Origin: Caldifarciminota bacterium
Lineage (GTDB): Bacteria > Hydrothermota > Hydrothermia > UBA1063 > CAJXJZ01
Direction: 5' to 3'
Length of the DNA stretch: 64,000 nucleotides
NCBI GenBank assembly: GCA_026986775.1
Contig: JALSNX010000003.1
Location: 124,001-188,000 of the forward strand
Shown piece after piece: positions 48,022 through 58,504 of the stretch (the stretch's first letter is position 1; every line of letters begins with the position of its first letter). The notes beneath the pieces are model-generated. The model ran no database searches. It had not been told where the DNA came from and saw only the letters and a list, made by a program, of their open reading frames with translations. The position numbers were made by a program, and so were the translations under genes.

Positions 48022-48446
48022 AGAACTTTCGGGCTTATGCTTTAAGACTTATCAGTATAAGGGCGAGGAGTGAATTTGAACTCAGACGCAGATTGAGTGA
48101 AAAAGGTGCCTCGTCAGAACAGATTGAGGAAATAATAACTTCTTTTAAAGAGGCTGGCTTGCTTGACGATGCGGAATTTGCTTGTGATTTTGTAAGAAGT
48201 AAAACAATACGTCACTGGTCATGGTTCAGAATTGAATATACACTGAAATTAGAATTCAAAATTGCAGATGAGATAATAGAAAAAGCAAAAAAGTGTTATG
48301 ACGAAGATGAGGTGATGAAATATTATATTAAGAAATTCATCAAAAAAACCGATGATTATGCGTATATAAGGAAGTATCTGTATTCCAGGGGCTTTACCAG
48401 AGAGTTTATAAATAAAGTACTGGACGCTTTAACTGCTCAATCATGA
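48018..48446 (+). CDS. recX: RecX family regulatory protein
   Basis: 142 residues from GTG 48018. Three-helix RecX repeats: A-L-R-L-I-S-I-R-A-R-S-E-F-E-L-R-R-R-L, L-L-D-D-A-E-F-A-C-D-F-V and Y-L-Y-S-R-G-F-T-R-E-F-I-N. RecX modulates RecA filaments. Here it sits after manC rather than recA. Its last bases overlap the convergent GGDEF gene. Confidence 0.82.
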   Translation: MKNFRAYALRLISIRARSEFELRRRLSEKGASSEQIEEIITSFKEAGLLDDAEFACDFVRSKTIRHWSWFRIEYTLKLEFKIADEIIEKAKKCYDEDEVMKYYIKKFIKKTDDYAYIRKYLYSRGFTREFINKVLDALTAQS

Positions 48447-49540
48447 TCGTTGTTTTCACCAAATTCGTGAAAAGTACTTTCAGTATCTTCCCATAGTATT
48501 ACAGTTCTATTTTTACCGAGTTTTTTAGCGATATACAGCTTTTTATCTGCCTCTCTCATGAGTTCTGTAGCCGTATATGCCACAAAGAAATAGCTGCCAC
48601 CTATGCTGACAGTAGTGTTTGTATTTTTCTCTACCTCTTTTCTTATTCTCTCAGCAATTCTATAGGCACCTTCTTCATCGGTGTTTTTTAGAATTACAGT
48701 AAATTCATCACCTCCGTATCTGTATACACCGTCCGTATCTCTAATATTTCTTTTGATGATATAAACGAGTTCCTTGAGTACCTTATCACCTTCAAGATGT
48801 CCTAATGTATCGTTTACGTGTTTGAAATTGTCTACATCTATAATTAGAAGTACAAATCCAGTTTTGTGGACCATACATTCCTTTCTTACATGTTCTATAT
48901 CATCATAAAACTTTCTCAGGTTAAATGCGCCTGTAAGAGGGTCTTTTATAGATTCTTCATAGAACCGGTGGTATCTTTTTTTTATGTGTGCGGATAACTC
49001 TGAGAGCTCTTCACAGACCCGGTCAAATTCGTCCACTCCTGTTTTCTTTGTGCAATTTACCTCATCCTCGTTTTGAAGTTTTCTAATAGCATATTCTATG
49101 CGGTTTATGCCATGGATAAACAGCTTTTTTACTGAAAAATTCACGGTTACAATAAGAAAAGTAATTGTGAATAACAGAAGAATAATTCTGCTTATATAGA
49201 AAGGAATATAGGAAGGTTTAATGCCTTTTGAAAGAAGGGTGGCCACATAGTAGAATGAACCATTTCCTGCCCTGATTATAGTGTATTTCCCTTCAGCCAA
49301 TCTAAGGTGTATTGTATCAGGGTCGGAATGCCCTATGGTATTCAGGTTAATGGTGTCATAAATATTCAGAAATTCCCTACTGGTGTTTTTGTGATTTTTA
49401 TGAATTAGAATAAGTAGAGAATCCAACTTTTTGTACACTCCAATGAACTTTAGATTTGTATAATGATTTATGTGACCGACAAAATAATAAGATAACATTT
49501 CGGTATCTCTTTCGGGATTCAATTTCTGTATAAATTTCAC
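48437..49540 (-). CDS. Diguanylate cyclase (GGDEF), main part of a frameshifted membrane gene
   Basis: 367 residues as read from GTG 49540. An extracytoplasmic region (1-125) is followed by one membrane helix (about 137-155), a HAMP-like linker and a GGDEF domain with an intact Y-R-Y-G-G-D-E-F and an upstream R-D-T-D inhibitory (RxxD) site. It makes c-di-GMP from two GTP. The GTG is probably not a real start: reading upstream in frame gives F-F-I-Q-R-H-E-F-V-K. The missing N-terminal helix lies just upstream in the +1 frame at 49545-49766. Confidence 0.82.
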   Translation of the reverse strand: MKFIQKLNPERDTEMLSYYFVGHINHYTNLKFIGVYKKLDSLLILIHKNHKNTSREFLNIYDTINLNTIGHSDPDTIHLRLAEGKYTIIRAGNGSFYYVATLLSKGIKPSYIPFYISRIILLLFTITFLIVTVNFSVKKLFIHGINRIEYAIRKLQNEDEVNCTKKTGVDEFDRVCEELSELSAHIKKRYHRFYEESIKDPLTGAFNLRKFYDDIEHVRKECMVHKTGFVLLIIDVDNFKHVNDTLGHLEGDKVLKELVYIIKRNIRDTDGVYRYGGDEFTVILKNTDEEGAYRIAERIRKEVEKNTNTTVSIGGSYFFVAYTATELMREADKKLYIAKKLGKNRTVILWEDTESTFHEFGENNDHD

Positions 49541-49929: not shown

Positions 49930-50682
49930 ATGCAGGCTTTTTATGCCATATTTATTGTTTTGCTGGGGCTTGCAATTGGGAGCTTTCTGAATGTATGTAT
50001 ATACCGTATTCCTGAAGGTATGTCCATACTGCATCCTCCCTCGCACTGTCCTTACTGTGGAAGGAGAATAAGGTTTTATGACAACATTCCTCTTGTATCA
50101 TATATAATACTTGGTGGGAAATGTAGGTACTGTAAACACCGCATTCCATTTCGCTATTTCCTTGTGGAGCTTTTAACAGGAGTACTTTTTTTTCTGGCTT
50201 ATTTGAGATTTGGATTAACATTTGAACTTATAAGAATGCTGGTTTTTATAACGTTTGCTTCATGTGTTGCCTTTATAGATGCAGAGAAAATGCTTGTGCC
50301 TGATAAGGTCACTTTTCCAGCTATTTTTCTGGGAGTTGTTCTTGCGCTATATCCCGGGGGTTTCAGTTTAGTAAATGGTTTGATTGGTGCAGTTTTTGGT
50401 GGAGTCATAATGCTTGTATTCAGGGTTGGTGGAAAGCTTGTATTTAAACGTGAGGCATTAGGGGATGGTGATATTGTCATTATGATAATGATAGGGATTT
50501 TCACCGGTCCTCTGGGTGTATTTGTATCAATTCTTTTCGGTTCTCTTTTAGGTAGTATCGTTGGAATTTTCCTTATTTTAAAGAACAAAACTGACATTTT
50601 GCCCTTTGGTCCTTTCTTAATAGCAGGCTCGTTTATATATATTTATTTGATTCAGTTTACAAAATACTTGACAATTGGTTAA
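49930..50682 (+). CDS. pilD: Prepilin peptidase / N-methyltransferase
   Basis: 250 residues, polytopic. N-terminal methyltransferase part with two CxxC pairs (C-P-Y-C and C-R-Y-C) and P-L-V-S-Y. The A24 aspartic protease domain follows, with D-A-E-K-M-L-V-P-D and the G-D-G-D motif (A-L-G-D-G-D-I-V). It cleaves the leader of type IV prepilins and methylates the new N-terminus. It heads the pilus locus; the next promoter overlaps its 3' end. Confidence 0.93.
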   Translation: MQAFYAIFIVLLGLAIGSFLNVCIYRIPEGMSILHPPSHCPYCGRRIRFYDNIPLVSYIILGGKCRYCKHRIPFRYFLVELLTGVLFFLAYLRFGLTFELIRMLVFITFASCVAFIDAEKMLVPDKVTFPAIFLGVVLALYPGGFSLVNGLIGAVFGGVIMLVFRVGGKLVFKREALGDGDIVIMIMIGIFTGPLGVFVSILFGSLLGSIVGIFLILKNKTDILPFGPFLIAGSFIYIYLIQFTKYLTIG

Positions 50683-50703: not shown

Positions 50704-52365
50704 ATGGCAGATGATTTAAATATAAAAAATATAAAAAAGAAGAGGAGTGAGGCCTTACGTTTTCTTGGAAAAGGCAAGATAGATAAGGCCATAGAGGTAT
50801 ATGAGGATATTCTGAAAGTCAAGGAGGACCCCGATATTTACAATTCCGTGGGTGACCTCTATGTGAGAAAGCAGAATATATCCAGAGCCATTGAAGCGTA
50901 TGAGAAGGCCTTTAAGTTATACAAGGAGATAGAATTTCTGGATAATGCTGTTGCTGTTATAAGGAAGATACTTAAATACGAGAAAGACCGAAAAGACCTC
51001 TATCTTGAACTGGCAGACCTCTATACAGAATTGGGAAATCAGGATGCAGCACTTGATGCCCTGGAGAGTGTAATCACTGAAGACCTTGATCCATCAATGC
51101 TTGAACGTGCTTTTGCCATTATTACACAACTTGCTGAAAAGGTTCAGGAAGATGAGTCCAGTGTACGAAGGTTTGAAAGACTGTTTATAAAACTGCAGGA
51201 GATATCAGAAAGGTTTGGTGAGATTTCCCTTGAAAGCGGTATGGGGATGGATATGGGCATGGGGGATGAGGATATTTTTGCGTCAGAGCCGTCTCAGGAA
51301 GAGAGTGTTGAAGAGGAAGGTCTGGTATTGGAAGATACAGGGGAAGAGGTTGAAACCGGCGTTTCTGAAGCTCAGACGGAAGGTCCTTCTACACCACCTG
51401 GTCTATCAGAATCACATGAAGAAGGATTTATTTTAGAGGAGGAAGAAAAGGAAGAAACTGCCGAAGTAGAGTCTGCTACTCAGGAAGCGGAAGAACCTGC
51501 TGCTTTTGTGGAGGAGGAAGAAATAAGGCCGGTTCCCGGGCTGAAGAAGTATGATGATATTTATGAAGCGCCAGAGGCTTCCACTGAAGACCTTGTTTTT
51601 GACGCGGAGGAACCGGAGGAAGAGCCTGTTATTTCCGATTTTCAGGAACCACAGGAAGAGGAAATAAGCGAGTTAGAGACCAAAGAAGATGAGTTTACAC
51701 CTGAGAGTGGCGAAGAAATAATAGAAGGGGCTGTTGAGACTGAAGAACCGGTAATCTCAGAGCCACCTGAAGTTACCACAGAGACCGAGGAGCAAAAGGT
51801 AAAAACAACGGATAAGGGTAAAACAATGCCCACAGAGGAGATTATTGCCACTAAACCCGTAGAAAGACAGAAACCTCCTACCACCACAAAACATCCCGAA
51901 ATAGAAAGTAAGTACTATGAAGAATTTAAGGATATTGTTCTGACTTTTATTGAAGAAATGGGTGAGGCCAATATTGATGAGCTTTATGATTTTGAGCATC
52001 CTTTTGAAACAGCCATGACATTATACAGAATGGATCTTTTTGATGCTGCCATTGATGAGTTTCAGCTTGCCATGAGAGATAGTGAATACAGGCTCAGGGC
52101 TATGGAGATGATAGGCAGGATTTTCTTTGAATTGAATAACTACGAGATGGCAATCAAAATGCTTGAGAAAGCCCTTGACGAAGGTGGATATGAGGAGCAT
52201 GAGTATGTTGGTATCAGATATTATCTCGGTAAGGCATACGAAGCTATGGGACTTGAGGATAAGGCTCTTGAACATTACGAACAACTTTATCTGATTGATA
52301 GAAACTATAGAGATGTCAGTGAAAGAATAGATGCCTTGAGGCTTAAAAGGGTAAAAAGTTTTTAG
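50704..52365 (+). CDS. Acidic TPR protein heading the pilus operon
   Basis: 553 residues, no signal peptide, so cytoplasmic. TPR repeats at 10-150 (G-K-I-D-K-A-I-E-V-Y-E-D-I-L, I-S-R-A-I-E-A-Y-E-K-A-F), then an extremely Glu-rich, low-complexity linker (about 180-400), then C-terminal TPRs (about 410-545, N-Y-E-M-A-I-K-M-L-E-K-A). A scaffold-like architecture, loosely comparable to FimV-type pilus proteins, but no homology is claimed. It is followed nine bases later by the MshEN-AAA+ gene. Confidence 0.7.
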   Translation: MADDLNIKNIKKKRSEALRFLGKGKIDKAIEVYEDILKVKEDPDIYNSVGDLYVRKQNISRAIEAYEKAFKLYKEIEFLDNAVAVIRKILKYEKDRKDLYLELADLYTELGNQDAALDALESVITEDLDPSMLERAFAIITQLAEKVQEDESSVRRFERLFIKLQEISERFGEISLESGMGMDMGMGDEDIFASEPSQEESVEEEGLVLEDTGEEVETGVSEAQTEGPSTPPGLSESHEEGFILEEEEKEETAEVESATQEAEEPAAFVEEEEIRPVPGLKKYDDIYEAPEASTEDLVFDAEEPEEEPVISDFQEPQEEEISELETKEDEFTPESGEEIIEGAVETEEPVISEPPEVTTETEEQKVKTTDKGKTMPTEEIIATKPVERQKPPTTTKHPEIESKYYEEFKDIVLTFIEEMGEANIDELYDFEHPFETAMTLYRMDLFDAAIDEFQLAMRDSEYRLRAMEMIGRIFFELNNYEMAIKMLEKALDEGGYEEHEYVGIRYYLGKAYEAMGLEDKALEHYEQLYLIDRNYRDVSERIDALRLKRVKSF

Positions 52366-52374
52366 GAGGGTTAT

Positions 52375-53595
52375 ATGGCTGAACTTGAGAAAGTAAAGAG
52401 AAAAACATTTGCAGATATACTTGTAGATGAGGGTATAGTACCTCAGGAGATAATGAAAAAAGCCCTGAAAGAGCAGTGGAGTGAAGGAATACCTATAGAG
52501 CTTTACCTCATTAATAAGGGTTATGTTAATGAGGATACTCTTATATCAGTTTTAACAAAAAAGTTCCCTCTGAAATATGTGGACCTGTCTGTTATTCAAC
52601 CTGACCCTGAGGCTGTGGACCATATTCCTTACAGAATAGCCAAGAAGTATGTTTTAATACCACTCAGGAAAAGTGGCAGGTCTCTTGCAGTTGTTATGGG
52701 CAACCCTTTGAACAGGGAGATGGTTAGTGAGCTTAAAAAAGTTACAGACCTTAAGATAATTCCGTTTGTTGGAAGGATTTCCGAGATTCTGGATTATATA
52801 GAGACGTATTATTCAGAAGAAATCAGGAAAGAAGAAGAAATAGGAGCGCCGGCTGCTTATGGCAAGCTGAAAGGTGAGGTTGGGCTTACACTTCAGAGTA
52901 ATATGAACTTTGATAATTTTGAAGTGAGTTCCTGCAATGAAGTCGCCTTTTCTTTTGCCAAAAGCTTTGCAGAAACACGAGGCGTGGAAAATACGAGGTT
53001 GTTTATCTTTGGAAAGGAAGGTTATGGCAAGACACATCTTATAAATGCTGTTGGAAACTATATCCTTGAGCATGAGACCTTCAGGGGAGTTTTGTATACT
53101 GATGCTCTTAAGTTTATGGACCTCCTCAGTGCAGCTAAAAGCGACAAAGACCTCAGGAAATTCAGGCTATCACATGTTGAGACGGATGTATTCCTGTTTG
53201 ATGACCTTGACCTTTTGATGGGACATGATTATGCCCAGAATCAGCTTCTCTATATCCTGATGGAGTTACATGTACAGGAGAAGCAGTTTATCTTTACAAG
53301 TAGTGTGCCACTTAAAGAACTATCCGGTATGAATAAAAAGCTAATTTCAATTATAGAGAGTTCCATTGTAGCGCCAATAGAGCCACCAGACAAAGAATTA
53401 AAGATGAAGATACTTGAAAAAAAGCTTGCAAATTTGAAGCTCCATTCCAAGATTCTGGATCTCATACAGGAAGGAGCAGAGGATAACCTGAGGATTTTAA
53501 ATGCAATTATTAATGAGGTTATAACTTTATCGCGTATGGGCAAAGAGATTGATGTTAGCGTGATAAAGTCAATATTAAAAACCTATAGAGGATAA
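52375..53595 (+). CDS. MshEN (GspE/PilB N-terminal) domain fused to a DnaA-like AAA+ ATPase
   Basis: 406 residues. Residues 1-145 form a T2SSE_N/MshEN domain: two copies of the L-x-x-x-G-x-x-x-x-x-x-L-x-x-A/V-L pattern (F-A-D-I-L-V-D-E-G-I-V, I-E-L-Y-L-I-N-K-G-Y-V), then a ferredoxin-like part. Residues 180-406 form a DnaA/Hda-type AAA+ module: Walker A G-K-E-G-Y-G-K-T, Walker B F-L-F-D-D-L-D, sensor F-T-S-S-V-P-L and a lid, but no DNA-binding domain IV. The PilB secretion ATPase domain is absent. The usual MshEN R-L-G c-di-GMP residues are replaced (T-F-A, I-P-I). AGGAGGG precedes ATG. Confidence 0.78.
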   Translation: MAELEKVKRKTFADILVDEGIVPQEIMKKALKEQWSEGIPIELYLINKGYVNEDTLISVLTKKFPLKYVDLSVIQPDPEAVDHIPYRIAKKYVLIPLRKSGRSLAVVMGNPLNREMVSELKKVTDLKIIPFVGRISEILDYIETYYSEEIRKEEEIGAPAAYGKLKGEVGLTLQSNMNFDNFEVSSCNEVAFSFAKSFAETRGVENTRLFIFGKEGYGKTHLINAVGNYILEHETFRGVLYTDALKFMDLLSAAKSDKDLRKFRLSHVETDVFLFDDLDLLMGHDYAQNQLLYILMELHVQEKQFIFTSSVPLKELSGMNKKLISIIESSIVAPIEPPDKELKMKILEKKLANLKLHSKILDLIQEGAEDNLRILNAIINEVITLSRMGKEIDVSVIKSILKTYRG

Positions 53596-53609: not shown

Positions 53610-55274
53610 ATGAGCCTTACCGATTTGTTAAAGGGCCTGAAAAAAGCCGGGGGTGGGAATAACGTTATAAGCATTGATATAGGTTCCAGTTCGTTGAAAC
53701 TTGTACAGGTTGAGAGAAGGGGAAAGAAATACGTTGTTAAGGGTCTTACAACCGAGAAACTTCCACCTGAACTTATTGTCGGTAAGGAAATAATGGACCG
53801 TCAGGAGGTAATAATAAAGATTCAGGAAGCAGTCAAGAAGCTTGGAACCGATGTGCAGTCAGCGGCCATTAACGTTGCCGGACAGGACGTAATCGTGAGA
53901 AAAATAACTGTCCCCAAACAGAAAAAGAAAGAGGAACTGGATGAGTCAATACTCTGGAAAATAAGAGAAGAGCTGAATGTTGACCCTGCAGATGTAACAT
54001 GGGGATATTTTATTCTGGGCGATTCTGCTACAGCAGGGTCAGTGGACGTCTTTCTTGCTGCTGCCAAATTGGAAGTAATCTATGGTCTTTTAGACCTTGT
54101 TCGTGCAGCAGGACTTGAGCCCTTTGCCATCAACGTTGATCCTGTTTCTCTTTACAATACACTGAAATACAATGGGTATCTTGAGGAAGATAAGACGATA
54201 GGGCTTGTGCATATAGGTTACGAAAACACAGTACTTGTTATTATCAAGGGTGGTAAGATTCTGCTGTCTCGTGAGATGCATGTTTCTACGAAAACTTATG
54301 TTGAATCAATTTCCAGATTCCTTGATTTACCGCGTGAGGTTGCTGAGGAAGTTATGTACAAAGGCCCCGGTAATAAAGTGGAGGAAGAGGCTTTCAGGGA
54401 TACGATAGAATCTCTCAATGACAGATTTGTAGGTAATTTAGAGAGAAACTTTCAGGGAATCCTTCCTGAGGGCGGAAGTGTTGATAAATGGATTTTGAGT
54501 GGAGGTGGAGCATATATAGCAGGACTTCCTGAATATATCAAGGATAAATTTGACGGTGAGGTGGAAATACTTGACCCATTCAGAGAACTTGAGTATGAGG
54601 CGGAGGAAGGCTTTGGAGACATGCCTGCCATATATTCTGTTGCTATAGGTCTTGCAATTTCCTATTTTGAAAAGGAAACCTCAATCAATATTTTACCGCC
54701 TGAAGAGCTTGAAGTAATAGAGGAGATTTCTCTTGTACCGCATATTGTGCTGTCAGCAGTGATATTAATAGTCTTTCTTTTGATAATGGGGGTTGTAAGT
54801 ATTTTTCAATCCCGTAAAATAGTCAAACTGGAGAGCGAGAAAAAGGCTTTAATAGAGCAAAAGGTGGTGTTACAGAGGAAAGCAAACGAGATACGTGGTA
54901 TTAAGAAACAAATAGAAGAGGTAAGAGGTAAAATAGAGGTTATTAAAAACCTGTCTCGTGACAGGGCCAGATATGTTCAGATAATGGATGAAATAAACAG
55001 ATTAATCCCATATGATACATGGCTCCTTGGAGTTTCTGAAAGAGGTTCCGACAAACTTGAGCTTGAAGGAGAGACAGGTTCAAATTTGATCCTTGCCCAG
55101 TTCATGAAGAGATTGCTTTCGTCACCACTTATCAGTGATGTTCAGTTAATAGAATCAAGGGTTGATAAAATTGAAGAGCGAAAGGTTGCAAGATTTAAAC
55201 TTTCAATAACTTTAAGCCCTGTCCTTTTTGCAAAGGCAGAAGGACAAAATGAAAGAAAACAAGGAGGTAGGTGA
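53610..55274 (+). CDS. PilM-PilN fusion, type IV pilus inner-membrane platform
   Basis: 554 residues. Residues 1-355 are PilM, an actin-like ATPase (I-S-I-D-I-G-S-S-S-L-K, A-A-I-N-V-A-G, W-I-L-S-G-G-G-A-Y). Then comes PilN: the PilM-binding motif S-I-N-I-L-P-P at about 364-370, a membrane helix (about 388-407), a coiled coil (410-450) and the periplasmic PilN fold. In characterised systems PilM and PilN are separate proteins that bind through this motif; here they are one chain. It overlaps the next gene by 4 bases. Confidence 0.88.
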   Translation: MSLTDLLKGLKKAGGGNNVISIDIGSSSLKLVQVERRGKKYVVKGLTTEKLPPELIVGKEIMDRQEVIIKIQEAVKKLGTDVQSAAINVAGQDVIVRKITVPKQKKKEELDESILWKIREELNVDPADVTWGYFILGDSATAGSVDVFLAAAKLEVIYGLLDLVRAAGLEPFAINVDPVSLYNTLKYNGYLEEDKTIGLVHIGYENTVLVIIKGGKILLSREMHVSTKTYVESISRFLDLPREVAEEVMYKGPGNKVEEEAFRDTIESLNDRFVGNLERNFQGILPEGGSVDKWILSGGGAYIAGLPEYIKDKFDGEVEILDPFRELEYEAEEGFGDMPAIYSVAIGLAISYFEKETSINILPPEELEVIEEISLVPHIVLSAVILIVFLLIMGVVSIFQSRKIVKLESEKKALIEQKVVLQRKANEIRGIKKQIEEVRGKIEVIKNLSRDRARYVQIMDEINRLIPYDTWLLGVSERGSDKLELEGETGSNLILAQFMKRLLSSPLISDVQLIESRVDKIEERKVARFKLSITLSPVLFAKAEGQNERKQGGR

Positions 55275-55792
55275 TGAGGTTTTTAAATGTGCTCCCAATA
55301 GTTGTATTTGGAGCTGTCTTTGCTCTTTCAGGGTGTAGTGAAGAGAGTCATACTGCTGAAGTATATGGAACTGTTTACTGGGAAGAAGCTCACATAATTA
55401 CAGATTCGATTGACACTACAAAGCAGGATACAATATTTTATCTAAATCCCGCTCCAAATGTTCAGGTTTATCTGGAGCAGGACCAGTCTTCAGATATTCC
55501 ATATCAGGGTGAAGACCTTTATACTACCACCGATAATAATGGTGAGTACTCTTTTACCGTTTATCTTGGCCGGAATTATGATGCAAATGACTATATGTTT
55601 GATGAACTGCATATGTGTGATGTGAGACTTTATTATTTGTGGACACCGAATGGTAAGTATAAACTTCATGAAGGTGATACAGCCTATATAGCAGGACAGC
55701 TCTCAACAGAGGTTACGGGTTTTACCATAAAGTCAGGTGAAAGAGTGAAAGCCCCTGACGTAGTAGTTGGTAATGTATACTTTAGACAATAA
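55271..55792 (+). CDS. Pilus-operon lipoprotein with a carboxypeptidase-regulatory-like (Ig) fold
   Basis: 173 residues. Lipobox L-S-G-C with lipidated C22, then a single beta-sandwich: V-Y-G-T-V-Y-W near 32, P-A-P-N-V-Q-V-Y-L near 60, T-D-N-N-G-E-Y-S-F-T-V near 87, typical of CarboxypepD_reg/SdrD-like repeats. Such a lipoprotein is not part of the standard pilMNOPQ order. AAGGAGGTAGGTG precedes ATG. Could tether or shield PilO/PilP, or be a pilotin; that is inference. Confidence 0.7.
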   Translation: MMRFLNVLPIVVFGAVFALSGCSEESHTAEVYGTVYWEEAHIITDSIDTTKQDTIFYLNPAPNVQVYLEQDQSSDIPYQGEDLYTTTDNNGEYSFTVYLGRNYDANDYMFDELHMCDVRLYYLWTPNGKYKLHEGDTAYIAGQLSTEVTGFTIKSGERVKAPDVVVGNVYFRQ

Positions 55793-55812: not shown

Positions 55813-56421
55813 ATGAAATTTATAAAAAGTCCTAAGTTTATCTGGGGGATAGCCATAATTATCTATATAATAATTGGCTATCTCTATATTAACGGTATTT
55901 ACGCTGGAAAAGCCAGGAAACTCAAAAGTTTAGAGAGGGAAATAAGAAACGAACGTCAGACTGTTGCTCAACTTACCCTTGAAGTCAAGGATTACGATAA
56001 AATTATGGCAGAAAAAGATTCTCTGCTTGCACTCTGGGAAGAGACAAAGAAACATTTACCTTCCAGGCCTCAGCCTGATGAATGGTTAAGAGAGATTGCG
56101 GGTATGGCCATGAGCAGTGGAATAGAAATTGAATCTTACAAACCTATGCCACCCTCACAGTATGATCTTTATAAAGATTATCCTATAAAAATCACAGTAA
56201 GCAGCGGCTATCATGATCTGGGGACGTTTGTAAGTCTTATATCCAACGCTGACCGGCTGATGAAAATCAGAAACCTCACAATAAAGAATAAACCAAGCAA
56301 GGATGATCCCACCCAGACGGTTGAGGCGATTTTTGAGATTTCTAATTATGTTTACAGCCCCGCTCCTCCTCCGACCAACCAAAATAAGAAAACTATCCAA
56401 AACAGAAGGAGGAGAAGATGA
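55813..56421 (+). CDS. pilO: PilO-like type IV pilus assembly protein
   Basis: 202 residues. N-terminal membrane helix (about 10-30), coiled coil (33-80), then the PilO ferredoxin-like domain (L-P-S-R-P-Q-P-D-E-W-L, I-K-I-T-V-S-S-G-Y-H-D-L-G-T-F-V). It pairs with PilN in the alignment complex. A GGGGGAG Shine-Dalgarno lies before ATG, and the gene overlaps pilP by 4 bases. Confidence 0.88.
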   Translation: MKFIKSPKFIWGIAIIIYIIIGYLYINGIYAGKARKLKSLEREIRNERQTVAQLTLEVKDYDKIMAEKDSLLALWEETKKHLPSRPQPDEWLREIAGMAMSSGIEIESYKPMPPSQYDLYKDYPIKITVSSGYHDLGTFVSLISNADRLMKIRNLTIKNKPSKDDPTQTVEAIFEISNYVYSPAPPPTNQNKKTIQNRRRRR

Positions 56422-57233
56422 AAAAAATAGTGCTGAGTATTTTAATACCCGTATTTCTTATTGCAAAAATAAGTGAACTTAAAACCCTCACGATTTCAAC
56501 GGGTAATAATTATGTGGAAATAGAACTTGCATTCACATCAACCCCTGCAAATATTCATGATTTTATGTTGAAAAACCCTGCACGTGTAGTGGTTGATGCT
56601 GAAGGAACCAGGTATGCTCTTGGTTCAAATATATTTCCTGTGAATCAGGGTGCTGTTTTAAGGGTCAGAGGTAGCCAGTTCAAGACTGAACCCATGGTGG
56701 CAAGGGTTGTGGTGGACCTTAAAAAAGCTGTCAAATATGAAGTTATACGCGATGAAAATTCCGTAAAAGTGAAGGTTTATACAGAGCCAGCCAGTGTGGG
56801 ATATAAAAAGACAGTTAAAAGTACCTCTAAAGGCTCTCTCAAAACTACAAAAGGAAACACAATGACAGTACAGAAGAAAACAACAAAATCTATAGCATCT
56901 TCTCAGTCAGTAATATCTGTAGGCGCAAAATTCTTTTACAATTCCAGGGGCAGAAGAGACCCGTTTAAGCCTATAGCTGAGACATCAACAAAACAGGATA
57001 CTCTGCTTGATGTTGCCAAAGCAAAACTTATAGGAATCATACAGGATTCTACCGGTTATGTGGCTCTTGTTGAAGATAAAAATGGAAATGGCTTTATATT
57101 GAGAAGAGGTGATAGAGTAAAAAGAGGAAGGGTTGTAAGAGTAACGAAGGATATGGCAGTTTTTGCCATATCTGATTTTGGATTTACAAGAACTGTAATT
57201 TTAAAACTTGAAAAGGAGGAGGTATCCAAATGA
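56418..57233 (+). CDS. pilP: AMIN-PilP fusion, pilus alignment protein
   Basis: 271 residues. Signal-like N-terminus, AMIN domain (about 20-125: A-N-I-H-D-F-M-L-K-N-P-A-R-V-V-V-D), a Lys/Thr/Ser-rich linker, and a PilP C-terminal domain (R-R-D-P-F-K-P-I, A-K-L-I-G-I-I, Y-V-A-L-V-E-D, R-R-G-D-R-V). AMIN normally sits on PilQ and anchors it to peptidoglycan; PilP is normally separate and lipidated. No lipobox cysteine is seen. It overlaps pilQ by 4 bases. Confidence 0.82.
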   Translation: MKKIVLSILIPVFLIAKISELKTLTISTGNNYVEIELAFTSTPANIHDFMLKNPARVVVDAEGTRYALGSNIFPVNQGAVLRVRGSQFKTEPMVARVVVDLKKAVKYEVIRDENSVKVKVYTEPASVGYKKTVKSTSKGSLKTTKGNTMTVQKKTTKSIASSQSVISVGAKFFYNSRGRRDPFKPIAETSTKQDTLLDVAKAKLIGIIQDSTGYVALVEDKNGNGFILRRGDRVKRGRVVRVTKDMAVFAISDFGFTRTVILKLEKEEVSK

Positions 57234-58504
57234 AATTTTTTAGAGTGATGAGCATATTTTTGGTGGCGGGTACCCTTTTAGCAGCTGAAAAAACAATAAG
57301 CCTTGATGTACAGAATGCTGATATAAGAACTGTGCTCAGGGCTTTTTCCAGGGTGGCAGAAGTTAATATTGTAGCAACGCCAAACGTAAAGGGCACTGTG
57401 ACATTCTCTGTTAAAAATGTACCCTGGAAGGAAGCATTTAAATCATTACTGGATGCTTATTCACTGGCGTATACAGAGCAGAAAAACATAATTACAGTAA
57501 TGACACAGGATGAATATTCCAAGGTAAGAGATGTCTCTGGCCTTGAGATGAAAATTTTCCGAATTAAGTACCTCAAGGCATCTGATGTTGCCCCTGTAGT
57601 AGAGGGATTGCTTTCATCAAGGGGGAAGATGAAAGTGGAGGCATCTACAAACTCTCTGGTTATAACAGACCTTCCGGATAATATATATAAGATTGAAAAT
57701 TTCCTTTCCGGAATGGATAAGCCGGCTCGCCAGGTTCAGATACAGGTTAAGGTTGTGGAAGTTGATTATGATGCTGCGAGGTCCCTTGGAATTAATTGGG
57801 TTGTTGCTAAAAACCATCCTACAGATAGAGTAGGAGTTCGTCTTTCCAATGACGCTTCTATTGCTGGGGCCAAGACCAACTTATCCATTGGAACAATAAT
57901 AAATGGAATATCTATAGACAATGTTTTGCAGGCACTTGAAAATGAAAGTAAGGCAAATATTATATCTGCACCTTCTATAATGGTAGCAGATAATAATAAA
58001 GCTAAAATCGTCTCAGGAAAGAAGGTTCCCGTTGTTACCAAGGATATTTCTGGGAACACTGTAGTTCAGTTCTTTGATGCTGCCATTAAACTTGAGGTCA
58101 CTCCTCATATTACTCCCGATGGCAATATAGCAATGGAACTTCATCCACAGGTTAGTGATATAGCCGGTTATTCTCCTTCCGGTCAGCCGATAATCAGTAA
58201 TCAGGAAGCTGAGACCAAATTGACAATAAAGGATGGGGAAACAATAGTACTTGGTGGTGTAGTAAAAGAAACCAAACGCAGGGGCAATGCAGGTTTTCCT
58301 TTTTTGAGGAAGATCCCTGTGCTCAATCTTCTATTCTCCAATAACGAAAAGGCATCTTCCAAGGTGGAACTTATGGTGTTTGTTACGCCAAGAATAGTGG
58401 GTGACGAAGCTATGAACAGCATGGAAGAATCTAATAAAATGGAACCATCTACATCAAAAACTGAAAATACTGTTGCCCCTGAGGTTAAAGAGAGTAAAGA
58501 GTAG
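57230..58504 (+). CDS. pilQ: PilQ-like secretin (short, without AMIN)
   Basis: 424 residues. Signal peptide (1-19), STN/N0 domain (25-95: N-A-D-I-R-T-V-L-R-A-F-S), one N1/NolW repeat (105-170), and a secretin domain (about 175-395: G-I-N-W-V ... V-P-V-V ... V-T-P-H-I-T-P-D-G ... G-G-V-V-K-E-T). A Glu/Ser-rich tail follows. It forms the outer-membrane pilus pore. Typical PilQ is 600-750 residues with AMIN domains; here AMIN is on the upstream protein. Confidence 0.92.
   Translation: MKFFRVMSIFLVAGTLLAAEKTISLDVQNADIRTVLRAFSRVAEVNIVATPNVKGTVTFSVKNVPWKEAFKSLLDAYSLAYTEQKNIITVMTQDEYSKVRDVSGLEMKIFRIKYLKASDVAPVVEGLLSSRGKMKVEASTNSLVITDLPDNIYKIENFLSGMDKPARQVQIQVKVVEVDYDAARSLGINWVVAKNHPTDRVGVRLSNDASIAGAKTNLSIGTIINGISIDNVLQALENESKANIISAPSIMVADNNKAKIVSGKKVPVVTKDISGNTVVQFFDAAIKLEVTPHITPDGNIAMELHPQVSDIAGYSPSGQPIISNQEAETKLTIKDGETIVLGGVVKETKRRGNAGFPFLRKIPVLNLLFSNNEKASSKVELMVFVTPRIVGDEAMNSMEESNKMEPSTSKTENTVAPEVKESKE

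Follow-up and report, generated by a model that had tools for sequence, protein, structure and literature searches.

In type II secretion systems, the ND1 subdomain of the secretion ATPase EpsE/GspE binds EpsL/GspL, the homologue of PilM (EpsE-EpsL, 2BH1; GspE-GspL, 4PHT), and the same ND1 contact has been proposed for PilB and PilM (PMC8389850, PMC11656802). Accessory ATPases of type IV pili are already known and, by analogy, the described system whose operon logic comes closest to that of the gene presented here is the pair MshM and MshN of the MSHA pilus, in which an accessory AAA ATPase likewise stands beside TPR, stator and secretin genes, although MshM belongs to another AAA class and, going by its description in the literature, has no MshEN domain. 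V. cholerae deleted for mshM or mshN, the AAA ATPase and TPR genes of its MSHA operon, was no less piliated (PMC4624765), and such an accessory might thus be dispensable. Two other systems share one trait each with the present protein. NfrB also joins MshEN to an unrelated catalytic module, but it is a membrane glycosyltransferase with c-di-GMP as its described activator. The PilB regulators PilZ-FimX of Xanthomonas are also accessory proteins acting on the motor or stator via the PilB N-domain; they bind that N-domain, whereas the present protein carries its own.

The protein is encoded in a window of 64,000 nucleotides (the whole stretch of DNA analysed) and consists of the following parts:

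52375..53595, + strand: MshEN-AAA(DnaA) fusion gene, 406 aa (Pfam, NCBIfam, AlphaFold2, Foldseek, relatives, ribosome-binding site)
52405..52566, + strand: ND0 helical subdomain, residues 11-64, with two degenerate c-di-GMP motifs (alignment, motif test)
52567..52821, + strand: ND1 subdomain, residues 65-149, the PilM-type contact part in T2SS homologues (Pfam MshEN 66-150; interface by homology, PMC8389850)
52822..52890, + strand: flexible, fast-changing linker, residues 150-172 (pLDDT <50 at 150-167; 18% mean pairwise identity)
52891..53580, + strand: DnaA domain-III-type AAA+ module, residues 173-402 (Pfam, NCBIfam, solved relatives, Foldseek)

The gene starts with an ATG and has a strong ribosome-binding site just before it TAGGAGGG. 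Pfam assigns residues 66-150 to MshEN (E=2.2e-16) and residues 173-330 to Bac_DnaA (E=7.1e-28), both well over the gathering score, and it did not find the T2SSE catalytic domain PF00437 in the protein. The NCBIfam PilB model TIGR02538 covers residues 12-157 (E=3e-17), and the DnaA model TIGR00362 aligns residues 169-403 with its positions 100-337 of 437, where the match stops at the end of the protein, so that the C-terminal DnaA-box-binding domain IV is missing; a separate DnaA-sized match lies elsewhere in the same genome. No transmembrane or peptidoglycan-binding part was found in the protein. In the AlphaFold2 model (mean pLDDT 84.4), a disordered stretch at 150-167 joins two folded modules. 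By Foldseek, its C-terminal half resembles DnaA domain III (2z4r and 8bv3, TM 0.89-0.90 by target) and its N-terminal half the N-domains of MshE/PilF (5htl, 0.69; 9g1w, 0.79); the solved relatives are DnaA chains for the former and PilB/PilF/MshE N-domains for the latter. These results bear out the initial annotation, in which a MshEN N-domain was proposed to be fused to a DnaA-type AAA+ module without a DNA-binding domain, and the mismatch of the N-terminal half to T2SSE_N that would have spoken against it did not occur. The likeness of the N-domain stands with its limits moved from the first 145 residues to about 11-150, and the ATP motifs named there are present with their exact forms given below.

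Like PilB, MshE and GspE, the fusion protein has N-terminal ND0 and ND1, a flexible linker and a C-terminal ATPase module, and its gene belongs to a pilus operon; unlike them, it has a DnaA-type AAA+ instead of a T2SSE module, lacks ND2, has lost the c-di-GMP motif and coexists with a real PilB. It shares the AAA+ fold, the Walker motifs and the sensor-2 Arg with DnaA (domain III) and Hda, but it differs from DnaA by a MshEN domain in place of domain I, by the lack of domain IV and by its place in a pilus operon, and from both in the window lineage by the loss of the arginine finger and the sensor-1 Asp. Among the fusions, ND1 is the best-conserved region (mean pairwise identity 40%), followed by ND0 (37%), AAA+ (33%) and the linker (18%).

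The surrounding genes, in the order pilD, TPR, fusion, pilM-pilN, small ORF, pilO, AMIN/pilP, pilQ, minor pilins and PilY1-like, include:

49930..50682, + strand: PilD prepilin peptidase (Pfam)
50704..52365, + strand: TPR protein of 553 aa, 9 bases before the fusion gene (Pfam; neighbour in 25/27 other genomes)
53610..55274, + strand: fused PilM-PilN, 14 bases downstream of the fusion gene (Pfam; neighbour in 28/28 contexts)
55271-55792: small ORF, 173 aa, with a lipoprotein-like start, between pilMN and pilO (weak carboxypeptidase-regulatory-like match only)
55813..56421, + strand: PilO (Pfam)
56418..57233, + strand: AMIN/PilP-like protein (Pfam)
57230..58504, + strand: PilQ-type secretin (Pfam)

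The place between a TPR gene and PilM-PilN, described earlier for the window, also holds across relatives: a fused pilM-pilN lies directly downstream of the fusion gene in all 28 contexts (the window and 27 genomes), with a gap of at most 20 bases or an overlap in 23 of them, and a TPR gene precedes it in 26. Since its position next to pil genes is kept from lineage to lineage, the gene counts as a member of a type IV pilus operon. The two exceptions are the f34 genomes L041 and L042, where the TPR gene is missing and mnmE precedes the fusion instead, so a partnership with the TPR protein is not essential. The fusion is absent from the 13 WOR-3 pilus clusters of other types that were read, in which pilM and pilN are split or the fused pilMN is a distant one. 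Additionally, the small ORF is kept in many relatives, and a divergent GGDEF diguanylate cyclase gene (48437-49540, - strand) adjoins the operon, although the c-di-GMP motif is missing from both PilB and the fusion.

Candidate phylum WOR-3, an uncultured phylum to which the window belongs, was searched in 147 genomes; 30 of them, in 14 genera and 10 families (f1-f5, f32-f35 and f37), have full-length orthologues, and three further WOR-3 genomes of f10 and f11 have diverged forms; the WOR-3 relatives are 26-92% identical. An assembly artefact unique to one genome, which had been named as grounds for discarding the fusion, is rejected by this recurrence in 30 genomes, as are a frameshift and a chance join. 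No fusion was found in samples of 193 genomes from the phylum of an Omnitrophica genome, 297 from that of an Acidobacteriota genome, 296 from that of a Nitrospirae genome and 19 of one further bacterial group, weak negatives given that the larger groups are represented by the best 6-9 candidates per genome and that the centres of the samples exclude the nearest WOR-3 relatives. The phylum of a 'Hydromicrobium' MAG gave one match in 297 genomes, on the 8.5-kb contig L122, which has an operon of WOR-3 type (fusion, pilMN, pilO, pilP, pilQ) and an AAA+ module that nests inside WOR-3 family f32; its presence in a Candidatus Hydromicrobium MAG of another phylum is most likely a binning error. The matches listed in a scan of genome contigs were mainly true DnaA genes, and the candidates L127 and L138 were rejected as ordinary DnaA. 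With long-branch rows left out, the AAA+ modules of the fusions fall into a single clade distinct from WOR-3 DnaA (SH-aLRT 99); this clade is not recovered when those rows are included. Within the genus of the window, dN over the whole fusion gene is 0.04-0.10 and the MshEN part evolves more slowly than the rest, while dS is saturated, so that dN/dS mostly remains without a ratio. The most diverged form, L056, gave a predicted structure of pLDDT 42, which was set aside. The f11 fusions (L054:7628-9010 and L055:7209-8729) have an extra C-terminal region without a Pfam match, and their AAA+ is strongly diverged.

The expected secretion ATPase had also been thought to be replaced by the DnaA-type module, which is right for the domain order of the protein and wrong for the pilus motor. 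Another locus (C4) of the same genome encodes a PilB of normal build (MshEN and T2SSE), a second, PilT-like T2SSE ATPase and PilC; T2SSE ATPases are present in all 34 genomes checked, and replacement of the motor is thus rejected. In f37 (L049) and f11, pilB, pilT and the fusion gene even share one cluster. The f37 PilB (L049:2161-3735, 524 aa) starts at ND1, without ND0, and PilB frames of about this length occur in two related genomes. Moreover, stand-alone MshEN proteins of 144-167 aa occur in f37 (L049:8541-9032, L046:4243-4746 and L047:5642-6076), their genes flanked by a TPR gene on either side and belonging to the cluster that holds the fusion.

The AAA+ active site is marked by three elements:

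53011..53037, + strand: Walker A GKEGYGKTH, residues 213-221 (K219 invariant in 29 sequences)
53188..53211, + strand: Walker B VFLFDDLD, residues 272-279 (D276 invariant in 29 sequences)
53326..53355, + strand: box VII remnant, residues 318-327, with the arginine finger changed to I326 (comparison with DnaAs)

Nucleotide binding seems to be kept under constraint in the fusions, going by the invariance of K219 and D276. The arginine finger, which is Arg in 100% of 51 DnaAs, is Ile (I326) in the window lineage, and the sensor-1 Asp, upstream of the box VII remnant, is S310 in the window protein; we take the roles of these finger and sensor residues to be those of E. coli DnaA. The finger is also lost in f2, f5 and part of f3, and the Arg is kept in f4 and L012. 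The Arg that 98% of DnaAs have at the position corresponding to 268 here is missing from 30 of 31 fusions. On the other hand, the fusions of f32-f35 and f37 keep the sensor-1 SD, the box VII RLxSRF and the sensor-2 Arg, and these finger-bearing forms may form ATP-dependent oligomers. DnaA-style oligomer-coupled hydrolysis thus seems not to be under constraint in the window lineage, and the remodelling ATPase suggested at first is doubtful for the window protein because its own lineage lacks both the finger and the sensor-1 Asp; for the relatives that keep both it is possible.

We consider it reasonably likely that the fusion is an accessory ATP switch on the PilM stator that regulates the access of motors or the state of the stator, and switching or tuning the pilus machine is probably its job. 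It would be an accessory ATPase dedicated to a single WOR-3 kind of type IV pilus. The ND1 face of its MshEN domain would dock, as in PilB, on the cytoplasmic PilM domain of PilM-PilN, a contact that we infer by analogy; once docked, the fusion could serve as an ATP-dependent switch, competing with the motors PilB/PilT, recruiting them or gating them, or alternatively it could set the state of the PilM ring. The neighbouring TPR protein probably takes part where it is present. In the window lineage, in which ATP would be bound, the loss of the DnaA arginine finger suggests a slow or non-hydrolysing switch rather than a ring motor. The best conservation falling on ND1, the PilB-like flexible linker and the constant tie to pilMN all speak for this docked reading. 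A fuller version of the same switch is put forward tentatively, as somewhat short of an even chance: as a new class of type IV pilus regulator, a DnaA-type AAA+ would have been recruited once into a pilus operon and placed, through a copy of the motor's docking domain, in the PilM socket, where its nucleotide state would gate extension or retraction, and the parts for hydrolysis would have been lost repeatedly later.

The alternative that survives best, though unlikely, is that the fusion is a secretin or machine-assembly ATPase, a counterpart of MshM/ExeA with a TPR partner of MshN or TadD type. The WOR-3 operon does join TPR, AAA+ and pilMNOPQ, much as the MSHA operon pairs the ExeA-like AAA ATPase MshM with the TPR protein MshN (PMC4624765), which has TadD homology (PMC6668835). 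However, the AAA+ here is of DnaA type, not ExeA type, nothing in the fusion would span the membrane or bind peptidoglycan, and the constant neighbour is pilMN, the TPR gene being missing in two genomes. It is quite improbable that the protein is an Hda-like regulator whose AAA+ pairs with DnaA and links the state of the pilus or surface to the initiation of replication. In sequence and fold the AAA+ resembles DnaA and Hda most closely, and f32-f35 and f37 keep the arginine finger required for Hda-type inactivation; yet the window lineage has Ile for the finger and Ser for the sensor-1 Asp, Arg 268 is gone from nearly all fusions, every copy whose context was read sits in a pilus operon, and the linker, in the sequences read by eye, shows no clamp-binding motif like that of Hda. 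The fusion scores 54 bits with the curated Hda model TIGR03420 against a cut-off of 194.8.

A c-di-GMP sensor relaying its signal to the pilus is very improbable. MshEN is a known c-di-GMP receptor domain, the GGDEF gene (48437-49540) stands beside the operon, and two relatives, L013 and L056, score just at the cut-off of NF053729, the NCBIfam model of the c-di-GMP motif. Against this, the window protein scores 31.4, under that cut-off of 38, and the two 24-residue RLG motifs, published as RLGxx(LVI)(LVI)xxG(LVI)(LVI)xxxxLxxxLxxQ together with a relaxed form (Wang et al.; PMC5013675), occur in neither form in any of 29 fusions, which agrees with the initial annotation that the RLG residues are changed; neither form was found in the genome's own PilB. 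Additionally, the Gly position of motif II is an invariant Glu (E42) in the fusions, and even Thermus PilF GSPII-A, in which one motif is good and the other degenerate, does not bind c-di-GMP (PMC11731258). Judged from these residues, binding by the window protein is therefore unlikely, and c-di-GMP is probably not its ligand. Single-stranded DNA can be a ligand of DnaA-type AAA+ modules, and there are type IV pili that import DNA, but a role in handling single-stranded DNA for pilus-borne uptake is scarcely credible given that domain IV is absent, several DnaA-conserved positions are lost and no competence genes were noticed among the conserved neighbours.

No description of the architecture MshEN plus DnaA-type AAA+ was found in the open-access literature, in agreement with the initial remark that no such system is described, and it is in this architecture, undescribed in open-access text, that the fusion departs from the accessory ATPases already known. 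If the switch on the PilM stator is correct, the AAA+ fold of a replication initiator would have been recruited into a cell-surface machine, and a second ATPase could address the pilus stator through the motor's own docking domain; motor exchange at the PilM socket could then be tested by means of a natural decoy or gate. Within the family, active sites range in steps from DnaA-like and intact to lacking the arginine finger, which offers a model for the change from AAA+ module to switch.
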